From: Hymenobacter mucosus
GTDB taxonomy: Bacteria > Bacteroidota > Bacteroidia > Cytophagales > Hymenobacteraceae
Reading direction: 5' to 3'
Assembly (NCBI RefSeq): GCF_900188255.1
Contig: NZ_FZNS01000002.1
Span: 248,001-312,000, forward strand
Length of the DNA stretch: 64,000 nucleotides
Position 1 is the first letter of the stretch, and every line of letters begins with the position of its first letter. Positions 54,888 to 59,397 of this stretch are shown piece after piece. The notes beneath the pieces were generated by a model, which searched no databases, was not told where the DNA came from, and saw only the letters and a program-made list of their open reading frames with translations. The position numbers and the translations under genes are program-made.

Positions 54888-57860
54888 ATGAAAACAGCTA
54901 TTCTTACCGCATGGCTTGCGCTTATGTCTATCTCGGCTATGGCTCAAGCAGGGCTACCCGCTGGCAGGTGGCAGCAAGAGGTGAACTACTCTATTGACGT
55001 AACCCTTAACGACCAGCAGCATACCCTAACGGGGCAGGAGGAGCTTACGTACACAAACCGCTCTCCCGAAACCCTCCCCTATTTGTGGTTTCATCTCTGG
55101 CCTAATGCTTACCGCGACAATAGCACGGCCTTTGCGCGCCAGCAATTGCGGAATGGAAGCCGAGAGTTTCACTTTGCCACGGCAGAACAACGCGGGTTTA
55201 TCGACAATCTCGATTTCAAGGTGAATGGCCAACCAGCCTACCTTGAATACGATGCCACAAGCCCTGACATGGCTAAGCTGGTGCTCCCCCAGCCTCTGAC
55301 ACCAGGTACCAGTATCACCATCACAACTCCTTTCCGAGTAAAGATTCCTGATTCCTTTTCTCGGTTTGGCCACGTAGACCAGAGCTACCAGATTACGCAG
55401 TGGTACCCCAAGCCCGCCGTGTTCGATCAGAAGGGCTGGCACCAGATGCCCTACTTAGACCAGGGGGAATTTTATTCTGAGTTTGGCTCCTTCGACGTCC
55501 GTATCACCTTACCTGCTAACTATACAGTCGGGGCTACGGGCGTACTGCAAAACCCAGATGAACAGCAGCGCCTCGACCAATTAGCAGCCGCCACTGCCCT
55601 GAAGAAAACCGACAAAGATTTTGGGGAGGACCTATCCTTTCCTGCTTCGGTGGCAGAAAGCAAAACCCTGCGCTACGTGCAAGACCGAGTGCATGACTTC
55701 GCCTGGTTTGCCGACAAGCGTTTTAACGTGCTTAAGAGTGGCATGACGCTACCCTCGGGCCGGCAAGTGACCTCCTGGGTCATGTTCACGAACAAAGAGG
55801 CTGAGAAGTGGATTAAAGGCTTGCAAGACGTCAATGACGCGTTGACATACTATTCTCAGTGGGTAGGCGAATACCCTTATGCTTCTGCTACTGCGGTAGA
55901 TGGGGCATTGAGTGCTGGTAGCGGCATGGAATACCCCATGGTTACCGTGACTATGCCCTCCGCAATTGTGCACGAAGTAGGCCACAACTGGTTTTATGGC
56001 ATTCTAGCCTCTAATGAGCGTGACTACCCCTGGATGGACGAGGGAGTCAACTCTTACATAGAGAACCGGATAGAGAAGCGCGACAATCCGAATGCGGGCC
56101 AGTTTGAGGGACTCACCAAATCACCACAGCTGGCGAGCCTCCTCGGTATAGATGGCTTGCCGCCTGCCGCACTAGAGCAAATTCCATATCAGGCCCTGGC
56201 TAGCCGTGGGCTTGATCAGCCAGTGAGTGGCCCTACCTCCGCGGAATACAGCAGCCTCAACTATAACTTTGTTGTGTATAGCAAAACTGCTTCATTGCTA
56301 CGGTATCTGGCAGCTTATGTGGAGCAGGAGAAGTTTGATGAGGCCATGCACGCCTATTACCAGCGCTGGCAGTTTCGGCACCCTTACCCTGCCGACATGC
56401 AGGCAGTGTTTGAGGAAGTAACGGGCCAACCCCTGGGGTGGTTTTTTAAGCAAATGCTCACCGCCCAAACTCGCTACGCCGCAGCCGTGTCGGATCTGCT
56501 GGTGGAGGGGCAACTGGTGAAGGTGCTGATTCGCAATGACTCGCAGGCTCCCTTTGCCGTACCCGTTGCTACGCTTGATGCGCAAGGCAAGGTCCTTGAA
56601 ACTCAATGGACTCCGGTGTTTGGGGCGAGCGAGGACGACGAAACCGATGAGGTGCAACTAAACTTTCGTCGTGAAGGTGTTGCTAGTGTCGTTATCGACC
56701 CAGCCTACCTGACGCCCCAGCTCAACCGCCGCGATGACCGCATGAGCATTGAAGGTGCTTTCCGTACCTGGGAACCCTTGCGGCTGCGCCCACTAGGGAG
56801 CGTGGAGCGCTGGGACCGGAATACGATTAGCTGGCTGCCCGTAATGGGTGCCAACACCTCCGACAAGTTTATGCTGGGTGCTGCTTTTTATAACAATGCC
56901 CTAGCGCCCAAGCGCCTCAACTTCTTGGCCATGCCCATGTATAGCTTCAACCAAAAAGAGGTGAACGGCATTGGCAAACTGAGTTTAAACGTACTACCCG
57001 GCGCCTTAGGCCGCCAACTGACAACTAGTGTGCTTGTTCAGCATTTTGAGCGGTATCGTAAGATTGAACCGAGCATAACTCTGCTGTTGCCCCACGCTGC
57101 CTTCACAGGTCCACAGCACCTTATCCGACTTGCAACTACCGATGTGCGCGACCAGGACCAGGACCGCACCAGCAACATTCAAACGCTGGAATACCAAGTG
57201 CAACATGGTAATGCCATGCAGCGTTGGGCAGCTCACGTAGAACTCAATCGCCTCACGCCAAATTCCTCCGACGACAACCCATCCAGCGAGGCGACTCTGC
57301 TGCGTGCTACGGCCACCTACGCGCGGTATTACTCACCCAAGAAGCAAGTACGCGTGCGGTTGTTTGGTGGGCGATTTTTGCAATCGGGGTATTCGGAGTT
57401 TTTCTTAGGACTAAGCGGCAGCCCCGACTACCGCCGTCAGACTGCCTTCCTTGACCGCCAGCAAATTTCGGATGCTTTCACGGCTCAAACGCACCAAACA
57501 GACGACCGAGACGGTGCTTTTAAGGGCTTCGTGCCCGCGCGTAGTCAGCGGTGGCTGAGCACTCTAAATTTGGAGGCTGACTTACCGGTAACCCGACTCG
57601 CCATTTTTGCGGACCTGGGCGCAACGAAGGAATTTACAACGCTGTACGCCAACCGGGGCACCCAACGGCTGTATTACGATGCGGGCTTAGTTGTACCGGT
57701 GGCCGGTAAATTTCTGCGCTTTTACCTCCCCGTGGTTGGTTCTCAGTACCAGGACGGCTTACCGACCAGTCGCAAAGATTTCACCGACCGGATTCGTTTC
57801 GTGCTGAATCTAGACCAACTCAACCCTTTTAAGCTTCTTGACGACCAGCTAGCTCAGTAG
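54888..57860 (+). CDS. M1 family metallopeptidase (aminopeptidase)
   Basis: 990 residues. Signal peptide ILTAWLALMSISAMAQ, then the N-terminal saddle and the gluzincin domain. The zinc motif is HEVGH (H362-H366), followed exactly 18 residues later by E385 in MDEGVNS, i.e. HEXXHX18E. The exopeptidase block reads SGMEYPMV where GAMEN is usual. The C-terminal half (from about 640) looks like an outer-membrane-type beta-rich region. It removes N-terminal residues from peptides outside the cytoplasm. A pyrophosphatase-like lipoprotein gene follows 6 bp later. Confidence 0.9.
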   Translation: MKTAILTAWLALMSISAMAQAGLPAGRWQQEVNYSIDVTLNDQQHTLTGQEELTYTNRSPETLPYLWFHLWPNAYRDNSTAFARQQLRNGSREFHFATAEQRGFIDNLDFKVNGQPAYLEYDATSPDMAKLVLPQPLTPGTSITITTPFRVKIPDSFSRFGHVDQSYQITQWYPKPAVFDQKGWHQMPYLDQGEFYSEFGSFDVRITLPANYTVGATGVLQNPDEQQRLDQLAAATALKKTDKDFGEDLSFPASVAESKTLRYVQDRVHDFAWFADKRFNVLKSGMTLPSGRQVTSWVMFTNKEAEKWIKGLQDVNDALTYYSQWVGEYPYASATAVDGALSAGSGMEYPMVTVTMPSAIVHEVGHNWFYGILASNERDYPWMDEGVNSYIENRIEKRDNPNAGQFEGLTKSPQLASLLGIDGLPPAALEQIPYQALASRGLDQPVSGPTSAEYSSLNYNFVVYSKTASLLRYLAAYVEQEKFDEAMHAYYQRWQFRHPYPADMQAVFEEVTGQPLGWFFKQMLTAQTRYAAAVSDLLVEGQLVKVLIRNDSQAPFAVPVATLDAQGKVLETQWTPVFGASEDDETDEVQLNFRREGVASVVIDPAYLTPQLNRRDDRMSIEGAFRTWEPLRLRPLGSVERWDRNTISWLPVMGANTSDKFMLGAAFYNNALAPKRLNFLAMPMYSFNQKEVNGIGKLSLNVLPGALGRQLTTSVLVQHFERYRKIEPSITLLLPHAAFTGPQHLIRLATTDVRDQDQDRTSNIQTLEYQVQHGNAMQRWAAHVELNRLTPNSSDDNPSSEATLLRATATYARYYSPKKQVRVRLFGGRFLQSGYSEFFLGLSGSPDYRRQTAFLDRQQISDAFTAQTHQTDDRDGAFKGFVPARSQRWLSTLNLEADLPVTRLAIFADLGATKEFTTLYANRGTQRLYYDAGLVVPVAGKFLRFYLPVVGSQYQDGLPTSRKDFTDRIRFVLNLDQLNPFKLLDDQLAQ

Positions 57861-57866
57861 TTTCCT

Positions 57867-58472
57867 ATGCGCGTTCCAGCATTGCTTACGTGTGGTGCGG
57901 CTATATTAAGCAGTCTTTCTGCCTGCCGCACCGACTACGCACACCTACCTACATTTTCTACTGATCGTAAGCTCCTGCAGGTAGTAGTGGTGGCCCCCGC
58001 TGGCACCAACCACGAGCAGCGCTACGACGCCGATAAGAAGGAATTTGTACCTATGCAGCTTGCTGGTGCTGATCACTTGTTGGAGTTTCTCCCGTTCCCG
58101 GGCAACTATGGGTTCATTCCTAGTACGCGACTACCCACCTCTACCACGCGTCCCGGTAACCCGCCGCTAGCCGCACTAGTGCTGGCGGAAAGCGAGCCCG
58201 CGGGCACTGTCATGGAAGTATTACCAGTTGCCTTACTCCTGTTAGATGTCAACGGCGAATTAGAGCAGGTAGTCGTGTCAGTGCCGGCTCGTCCGGCCCA
58301 GCAAATTTTACCCCACGCAACCGACTGGTCTTCCCTTCGGCGTCGCTACCCCGCCGTGCGCCAGTCCCTAAACTTATGGTTTCAGAACCGGAGCCGACCG
58401 GGCAGCACCCGCATAGTGGGGTGGAAGGATGAGCAAGCCGCCGCGCAACAAATCAAGAACTTAATGGATTAG
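57867..58472 (+). CDS. Inorganic-pyrophosphatase-like lipoprotein, probably inactive
   Basis: 201 residues. Lipobox LSAC (Cys20) predicts a lipoprotein, which is odd for the family. The body aligns with family I soluble pyrophosphatase: VVVVAPAGTNHEQRYDADKK, PFPGNYGFIPSTR, and the C-terminal STRIVGWKDEQAAAQQI. The signature DGDPxD, which binds the metals, reads PGNPPLA here, so all three aspartates are gone. The lysine after the PxG(T/S)N turn is also missing. I infer a non-catalytic relative with a binding role. It begins 6 bp after the M1 peptidase stop, in the same operon. Confidence 0.82.
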   Translation: MRVPALLTCGAAILSSLSACRTDYAHLPTFSTDRKLLQVVVVAPAGTNHEQRYDADKKEFVPMQLAGADHLLEFLPFPGNYGFIPSTRLPTSTTRPGNPPLAALVLAESEPAGTVMEVLPVALLLLDVNGELEQVVVSVPARPAQQILPHATDWSSLRRRYPAVRQSLNLWFQNRSRPGSTRIVGWKDEQAAAQQIKNLMD

Positions 58473-58686: not shown

Positions 58687-59397
58687 CTATTCGATTTTGT
58701 TCATCCGCTCCTTCACAGCTTCGAGAGCTACGCGCATGTTTACAATGTCGGCGCGGGCAGCTTCCTGCTCTTTCAGGTTCATATCAACCATGTTGTTGTA
58801 CTGCAGCAATTCAGCGGCGTTTTTGGCCAGTTCTTGCTGAATTTCAGCCTTACGCGTCTTGTTCTTCTCGATGTCCTTCTTAATCATGTCAGCCTTTTGA
58901 ATAACTGCCATGTGGTTGTTCTGCGACGACACCAGTGCTTTTTCAGCTTCAGCAACCTGGATAGCCAAGTCTTCGCGGTAGAGAGTCCGAGCAAAGTCTT
59001 TTAAGTAAGCCTCAGCCGCTTTCCACTGCACGGGAGTAGCTTCCTTACCCAAGTAAGCATTGCCCAAGTCAATCGACCACCATACAGTAGTACCCGTTGG
59101 TACGGCATCTACCTTGCTGATAACACGTACAGGGGTTTTGGCAATTGACTCGATAACGACACCATCCATCTGGTATACGCCCTTGTCAACTTTCACCTTG
59201 TTGCCGAATTGGGAATCAAGTTGCTTTTTCCAGGAATCTTCTACCCGCTTGCTATCTAGCTGCACGGAAACCCGCTGTCCTTTACGTGGAATGCCCTTCA
59301 CGGCCATTTCCGTTTCGTCTACGGGCGACTTCTGCGCGTAGCTAGTCACCGACAGTACAAATACCAGCAGCAGAGAGAGGAGTACGCCTCGTTTCAT
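58687..59397 (-). CDS. Secreted coiled-coil protein of unknown function
   Basis: 236 residues. Signal peptide (LLSLLLVFVLSVTSYAQ). A mainly beta N-terminal domain (about 35-125: RKGQRVSVQLDSKRVEDSWK; VYQMDGVVIESIAKTPVRV; TTVWWSIDLGNAYLG) is followed by a long coiled coil (about 140-236, with KADMIKKDIEKNKTRKAEIQ). No family recognised. A TAAATTTG promoter box lies 73 bp upstream. Divergent from the PTPS gene. Confidence 0.72.
   Translation of the reverse strand: MKRGVLLSLLLVFVLSVTSYAQKSPVDETEMAVKGIPRKGQRVSVQLDSKRVEDSWKKQLDSQFGNKVKVDKGVYQMDGVVIESIAKTPVRVISKVDAVPTGTTVWWSIDLGNAYLGKEATPVQWKAAEAYLKDFARTLYREDLAIQVAEAEKALVSSQNNHMAVIQKADMIKKDIEKNKTRKAEIQQELAKNAAELLQYNNMVDMNLKEQEAARADIVNMRVALEAVKERMNKIE

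Follow-up and report, generated by a model that had tools for sequence, protein, structure and literature searches.

The locus

The window (the whole stretch of 64,000 nucleotides analysed) comes from Hymenobacter mucosus. An open reading frame at 57867-58472 on the forward strand begins with ATG and encodes 201 residues; it follows a gene for an M1 peptidase, whose stop ends at 57860, after 6 bp, the spacing given in an earlier note on this DNA. The note also called the two fused, which needs correcting: the genes adjoin and the proteins are separate. The product is referred to as pseudo-PPase lipoprotein (PPL), for its likeness to inorganic pyrophosphatases (PPases).

54888..57860, forward strand: upstream M1 peptidase gene, with a signal-peptide-like start, an M1 domain with HEVGH (PF01433, 46.4 bits) and a predicted C-terminal barrel; adjacent to PPL in 59 of 59 genomes with both genes.
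56700..57860, forward strand: C-terminal part of the M1 protein, a predicted Omp85-like beta-barrel (AlphaFold2 pLDDT 78.7, pTM 0.76; Deinococcus radiodurans BamA at Z 18.1; no Omp85 sequence match).
57867..58472, forward strand: PPL, 201 aa (PF00719, 55.8 bits; AlphaFold2 pLDDT 80.3, pTM 0.78; PPase fold, Z 21.1 to 2prd).
57867..57926, forward strand: predicted signal peptide ending in the lipobox L-S-A-C20, judged from the sequence (Cys in all 68 rows, 53 of which match the strict pattern).
58155..58172, forward strand: former DGDPxD signature, now GNPPLA, residues 97-102, by alignment to E. coli Ppa.

Pfam matched PPL to PF00719 well above the cut-off (55.8 bits vs. 23.5, E 6e-15), and the top phmmer matches in the PDB were PPases (2prd at 3.4e-8), in agreement with the family I framework read from the sequence in the earlier note; the NCBIfam PPase equivalog model gave 30.6 bits, far under its 200-bit cut-off. 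The best of five AlphaFold2 models computed on a 30-row alignment had a mean pLDDT of 80.3 and a pTM of 0.78 (two of the five were near 80 and three at 44-56) and was weak (61-65) near residues 61-80 and 91-100, the latter including part of the former catalytic loop. It superposed on 2prd over 162 residues (Z 21.1, rmsd 2.3, 27% identity), and PPL is thus a family I PPase homologue both by sequence match and by predicted fold. With the soluble enzymes of the family (PF00719; E. coli Ppa, Thermus thermophilus 2prd) it shares the fold over the mature chain and a significant profile match; unlike them, it is a predicted exported lipoprotein that has lost the signature and has 1 of 13 catalytic positions left.

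Residues 17-20 read LSAC, a lipobox (judged by pattern alone) ending at the Cys20 named in the earlier note. The Cys was present in all 68 Hymenobacteraceae-type rows described below, 53 of which had the strict pattern. With its signal sequence and a lipobox with an invariant Cys, PPL is a predicted bacterial lipoprotein.

Downstream, on the reverse strand, 58687-59397 encodes a protein of 236 aa that starts like a signal peptide and matches no Pfam family above the cut-off. In Hymenobacter as well as in Pontibacter-type loci this gene is a conserved neighbour of PPL.

Distribution of PPL and loss of the active site

A genome scan gave 70 PPL loci, to which stretches from further genomes were added. 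Sixty-eight Hymenobacteraceae-type rows were compared: the window, 47 Hymenobacter loci and 20 others (Solirubrum, Pontibacter, Rufibacter, Sabulibacter and other genomes of the same family). These rows are related, and some of the genomes may be duplicates, so that the counts below are not independent. Locus L079 was excluded for a frameshift, L146 and L098 were counted separately, and L076 was included despite an altered, out-of-frame C-terminal end, for which reason its Y141 and K142 were scored as lost.

PPL was found in 66 of 120 Hymenobacter genomes (68 matches, with those of G038 and G366 weak and taken as other PPases), and 54 genomes had no orthologue. At E 0.001 the PPL profile matched in 71 of 291 genomes of the order and in 52 of 395 of the phylum, the weak matches including ordinary PPases. 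In 64 of the 66 PPL-bearing genomes the match was one open piece that extended at least to profile position 197; the match was split in G010 and stopped at position 176 in G363. The M1 gene appears interrupted in both L079 and G010 as well, and sequencing error is therefore possible in these two.

Catalytic positions were numbered by what we take to be the E. coli Ppa numbering, and the letter at each of the 14 agreed with the ppa gene; 13 were scored, R43 being left out because an insertion makes its column unreliable. In the alignment to E. coli Ppa, D65-G-D67-P-V-D70 became G-N-P-P-L-A in the window protein and K29 was lost, bearing out what had been noted of the signature and of an early Lys. 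The search of PPL for the DGDPxD signature and the other catalytic residues of a family I enzyme thus returned GNPPLA and a single retained position of the 13, Y55.

The losses extended to the whole set. None of the 13 positions was retained in 1 row, one in 21, two in 38, three in 5 and four in 3. D65, D70, D102, K104 and K142 were retained in no row, and K29, E31, D65, D67, D70, D102, K104, Y141 and K142 each in at most 2 of the 68. Acidic residues at the three signature positions were absent from 62 rows, numbered one in 6 and never two. The equivalent of E20 (residue 42) was kept in 64 of the 68 rows but is Val in the window protein. D127 of PPL was considered as a retained D97; in the ungapped register between two anchoring prolines it falls on T96, with V128 on D97, and for this reason it was not scored as kept. 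From these sequences we infer that PPL very probably does not hydrolyse pyrophosphate (PPi).

Two more PF00719 genes were found in the H. mucosus genome. The protein of L001 has all catalytic positions intact. L002 (1492-2019, reverse strand), a paralogue, has DGDPLD and yet keeps 6 of the 13 positions, with changes at E31, Y51, Y55, D97, D102, K104 and K142, and L103, from an Acidobacteriaceae MAG, is a PPase of the same type; among six cytosolic-type rows, 13/13 positions were kept in four and 6/13 in these two. Given L001 and L002, cytosolic PPi is plausibly handled by proteins other than PPL.

A site-keeping branch and the descent of PPL

A maximum-likelihood tree was built from 57 chosen rows. 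Cytosolic PPases split from all others in it with support of 100/100, and the Hymenobacteraceae rows together with L146 formed one clade (99/98) nested inside a site-keeping branch of other Bacteroidota. Without L146, support for the Hymenobacteraceae clade was 48/45, which fits a single loss of the site or several losses inside the family. This branch is the nearest to PPL in the tree and has members in Zunongwangia, Christiangramia, Saprospiraceae, Crocinitomicaceae and others; its 16 rows keep 11 to 13 of the 13 positions (13 in 10 rows, 12 in 5 and 11 in 1), whereas the PPL clade is site-less. A Cys at the lipobox position is common to both groups: it was found in 14 of the 16 branch rows, 13 times in the aligned column and once, in L139, in open frame upstream, and was missing with the chosen start in L091 and L095. 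Of the 18 rows that lie outside the PPL clade as counted here (the 16 branch rows, L146 and L098), 10 had the strict lipobox pattern.

The branch loci with both a lipobox-position Cys and a near-intact site (11-13 of 13) were L090, L092-L094, L097, L100 and L134-L141, from several Bacteroidota families. Judging by their residues, hydrolysis of PPi outside the cytoplasm is implied for such lipobox-bearing, site-keeping PPases.

Two rows had partly decayed sites. L146, from the same family as PPL, keeps E20, Y51, D65, D70, D102 and K104 (6 of 13) and by its residues is a putative half-way state of the loss; L098 (6001-6534), from a Bacteroidales MAG, has D67N and D70K, keeps 8 of 13 positions and looks like a separate partial decay.

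As the site-less clade is nested in a site-keeping branch in which most members have a lipobox, export of the PPase most likely predates the loss of catalysis. The reading of PPL as a pseudoenzyme, made earlier from the window, is strongly supported at the level of sequence by the whole clade and by its place within a branch of site-keeping, mostly lipobox-bearing PPases.

No relative of the window M1 gene was found beside the branch loci in any of the 16 stretches examined, some of which had short flanks. The neighbours at five of these loci (L090, L092, L097, L134 and L136; ten neighbours scanned with Pfam) included no Pfam-matching gene common to them, and the small gene directly upstream in L092 and L097 had no Pfam match in either.

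The M1 peptidase protein and its predicted barrel

The C-terminal 386 residues of the M1 protein gave an AlphaFold2 model of long antiparallel strands (pLDDT 78.7, pTM 0.76). Its best structural match was BamA of D. radiodurans (Z 18.1, rmsd 4.2, 279 residues aligned), and nearly all of the 50 structural matches listed belonged by title to the Omp85 superfamily (BamA or BAM, TamA, SAM, FhaC, CdiB, TOC). No Omp85 match to this part was found by sequence, either in Pfam or in a profile search of PDB sequences; Pfam on 43 homologues (from 72 listed C-terminal stretches) gave weak matches only, including DUF5686 in 4, with a best E of 0.0039. At least one POTRA domain is usual in the Omp85 superfamily; in the full M1 protein Pfam found Peptidase_M1 only, and no POTRA domain. 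On the strength of the model, the C-terminal part is a predicted Omp85-like barrel.

PlpD, as described in passages of PMC11116518, has a patatin-like enzyme domain on an Omp85 barrel, and the enzyme domain stays in the periplasm. In the M1 protein, too, a predicted Omp85-like barrel comes after an enzyme domain; the protein differs from PlpD in having an M1 peptidase in place of the patatin, in having no POTRA domain by Pfam and in showing its Omp85 likeness by model only. BAM is a known case in which lipoproteins partner an Omp85 barrel (passages of PMC4104836). No peptidase-Omp85 fusion was found among the literature matches listed or in the passages of PMC4104836 and PMC11116518 consulted, and the word peptidase occurs in neither.

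Linkage of PPL with the M1 gene

Orthologues of the M1 gene were called at E ≤1e-200 (next matches at 1e-69) in the 120 Hymenobacter genomes, and a close one was present in 87. Both genes occurred in 59 genomes, PPL alone in 7, M1 alone in 28 and neither in 26 (Fisher p 9e-6, uncorrected for kinship). In all 59 genomes with both, PPL lay downstream of M1 on the same strand, 1.4-1.6 kb past the end of the match to the catalytic half of M1. The gene pair, whose conservation the earlier note had proposed to check, is therefore adjacent in every one of these genomes with both members, but in the 7 and 28 genomes one member stands without the other. Between the M1 stop and the assumed PPL start, which is doubtful in some cases, 23 of 52 loci had 70-197 bp; in the other 29 the gap was at most 50 bp or the genes overlapped.

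Most Hymenobacter loci sit in a conserved block, rpsP-rimM-trmD-rplS-[M1]-PPL-236-aa gene-PTPS-folE. Genes of the block were named (rpsP, rimM, trmD, rplS, PTPS, folE and a penicillin-binding protein) from our reading of their translations. Because the pair sits in this block, its adjacency in Hymenobacter is partly inherited.

This bears on the best-surviving alternative, in which PPL, still a pseudoenzyme lipoprotein, has a separate job in the envelope that does not involve M1, and the pair is merely inherited gene order; we give this a substantial chance, though somewhat below even. PPL kept its place in the block without M1 in 5 of 48 Hymenobacter loci (L052, L059, L062, L071 and L074), and 7 of the 66 PPL-bearing Hymenobacter genomes have no M1 orthologue. 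No M1 gene was found in the stretches examined at any of the six Pontibacter-type loci (L078, L080, L145, L147, L148 and L153); in five of them PPL again stood between rplS and the 236-aa gene, and L147 shows the rplS side only. L150, a Rufibacter-type locus, also has PPL without M1 in the stretch examined.

Against a wholly independent role, M1 adjoined PPL in 10 of 11 Rufibacter-type loci (L081-L089 and L149), at all ten of which rplS lay outside the examined DNA, and in L146, with no block gene in the 12 kb examined. The M1 loci of PPL-less genomes point the same way: 16 of these 28 loci were examined, and none had a block gene around M1 in the 5.4-7.5 kb covered. M1 can thus move with respect to the block, and it also occurs at sites other than the one before PPL. 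The Rufibacter-type evidence is tempered by L084, L149 and L150, where block genes lie some kilobases off; the pair there may accordingly be plain inherited order, having stayed within or close to its ancestral surroundings, into which other genes have entered.

The link between PPL and M1 is thus beyond chance order and is not obligate, and inherited order accounts for part of it. That PPL acts with the peptidase, as first proposed from the window, gains from the adjacency (59/59 in Hymenobacter, 10/11 in Rufibacter-type loci) and loses from the occurrence of either gene alone. A physical partnership between the two proteins would be possible, and we hold it tentatively, at roughly one chance in three; the estimate is not higher because the Rufibacter pair cannot be placed with confidence beyond the region that the genes occupied ancestrally.

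Downstream of the M1-barrel gene in PPL-less Hymenobacter, an ORF of 450-471 aa with similar starts was seen in 12 of the 16 loci examined (L155-L165 and L169) out of 28 such genomes.

Maintenance and newly conserved residues

Ratios of dN to dS were computed with our own Nei-Gojobori script from Cys20 onward in 1770 pairs. Values from full ORFs (median 0.44 in 197 pairs, 57 of them at least 0.5) were replaced, some chosen start codons falling inside the M1 gene. In the 7 pairs at dS 0.05-0.4 the ratio was 0.02-0.30, with a median of 0.13; the median was 0.17 in the 25 pairs up to dS 0.6 (2 at least 0.5) and 0.40 in the 217 pairs at dS 0.05-1 (50 at least 0.5). The closest PPL pairs show purifying selection; the higher values up to dS 1 may reflect saturated synonymous sites or a fast-evolving protein. 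Thirty-four columns were invariant among 30 PPL rows, and the former catalytic loop (88-99) had a mean majority fraction of 0.33 vs. 0.65 elsewhere. The catalytic motifs of its homologues are gone and this state is maintained in the closest pairs, so that by sequence PPL is a putative pseudoenzyme; we consider with good confidence that it has kept a function.

Some residues became fixed where the site was lost. E117 was found in 68 of 68 rows of the site-less clade vs. 7 of 16 in the site-keeping branch; position 127 was D or E in all 68 rows, P143 was invariant, and R142 was present in 65, with Lys in the other 3. Only in the site-less clade do these four positions show no or almost no variation, and they could mark a new surface.

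They also bear on a second alternative, which we regard as very improbable: a rebuilt site, formed by E42, E117, D/E127 or other residues, would keep PPL catalytic, perhaps towards a different phosphate ester. The search for alternative acids suggested by the earlier note had a divided outcome: no Asp is kept at D65, D70 or D102, yet the E20 equivalent persists in 64 of the 68 rows, and two acids, E117 and D/E127, are invariant in the site-less clade and not in the site-keeping branch. The persistence of E20 also speaks against our preferred reading, a non-catalytic protein, since nothing would require it of a simple remnant of a dead site. A rebuilt site is difficult to reconcile with the near-complete loss of nine catalytic residues from K29 to K142 (none kept in more than 2 of the 68 rows), with the Val at E20 in the window copy and with the ungapped alignment of D/E127 one residue before D97.

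That PPL is a decaying relic without function, as its absence from 54 of 120 Hymenobacter genomes, the frameshift in L079, the split in G010 and the altered C-terminus of L076 might suggest, is scarcely credible beside the one open piece to position 197 or beyond in 64 of 66 genomes, the dN/dS of 0.02-0.30 in the closest pairs and the 34 invariant columns.

Discussion

In the reading that we prefer, PPL would go back to an exported Bacteroidota PPase with an intact site. Within the Hymenobacteraceae lineage the residues that bind metal and pyrophosphate would have been lost, but not the fold or the lipobox, and newly conserved residues would have been kept as well. PPL would now be a lipid-anchored extracytoplasmic pseudoenzyme, most likely an envelope protein that serves for binding or as a scaffold, without catalysis, and, where both genes are present, an accessory of the M1 peptidase with its predicted Omp85-like barrel. 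We consider this reading as a whole probable, with some reserve. Sequence and models show the fold, the lipobox, the lost site, the descent and the adjacency; the want of activity, a seat at the outer membrane and a physical partnership are inferred from them. With the fold kept, nearly all of the site gone and the gene often directly behind that of a predicted outer-membrane peptidase, the old enzyme was perhaps reused as a helper or binding protein. A more specific picture is an outer-membrane complex in which the M1 peptidase on its Omp85-like barrel would be joined by the lipid-anchored dead PPase as an accessory, the phosphate-binding fold having been rebuilt into a protein- or peptide-binding surface round E117, D/E127 and R142-P143; taken in full, this is rather unlikely.

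Family I PPases usually count as housekeeping enzymes of the cytoplasm. A 2024 review of microbial PPases (PMC11210485) never uses the words lipoprotein or secreted in its main text; periplasm occurs there once, for membrane PPases, and signal peptide once, for a plant enzyme. No lipoprotein or pseudoenzyme of family I was found by title or abstract among the open-licence literature matches listed, while pseudoenzymes as such are known across many families (PMC10211241).

The comparison points to an exported-looking branch of family I PPases in several Bacteroidota families, one inner clade of which would have lost catalysis, with a half-decayed intermediate. The PPL clade may therefore offer a good test case for the recycling of a housekeeping enzyme fold, and one in which a Pfam match alone would suggest an activity that these proteins most likely do not have.
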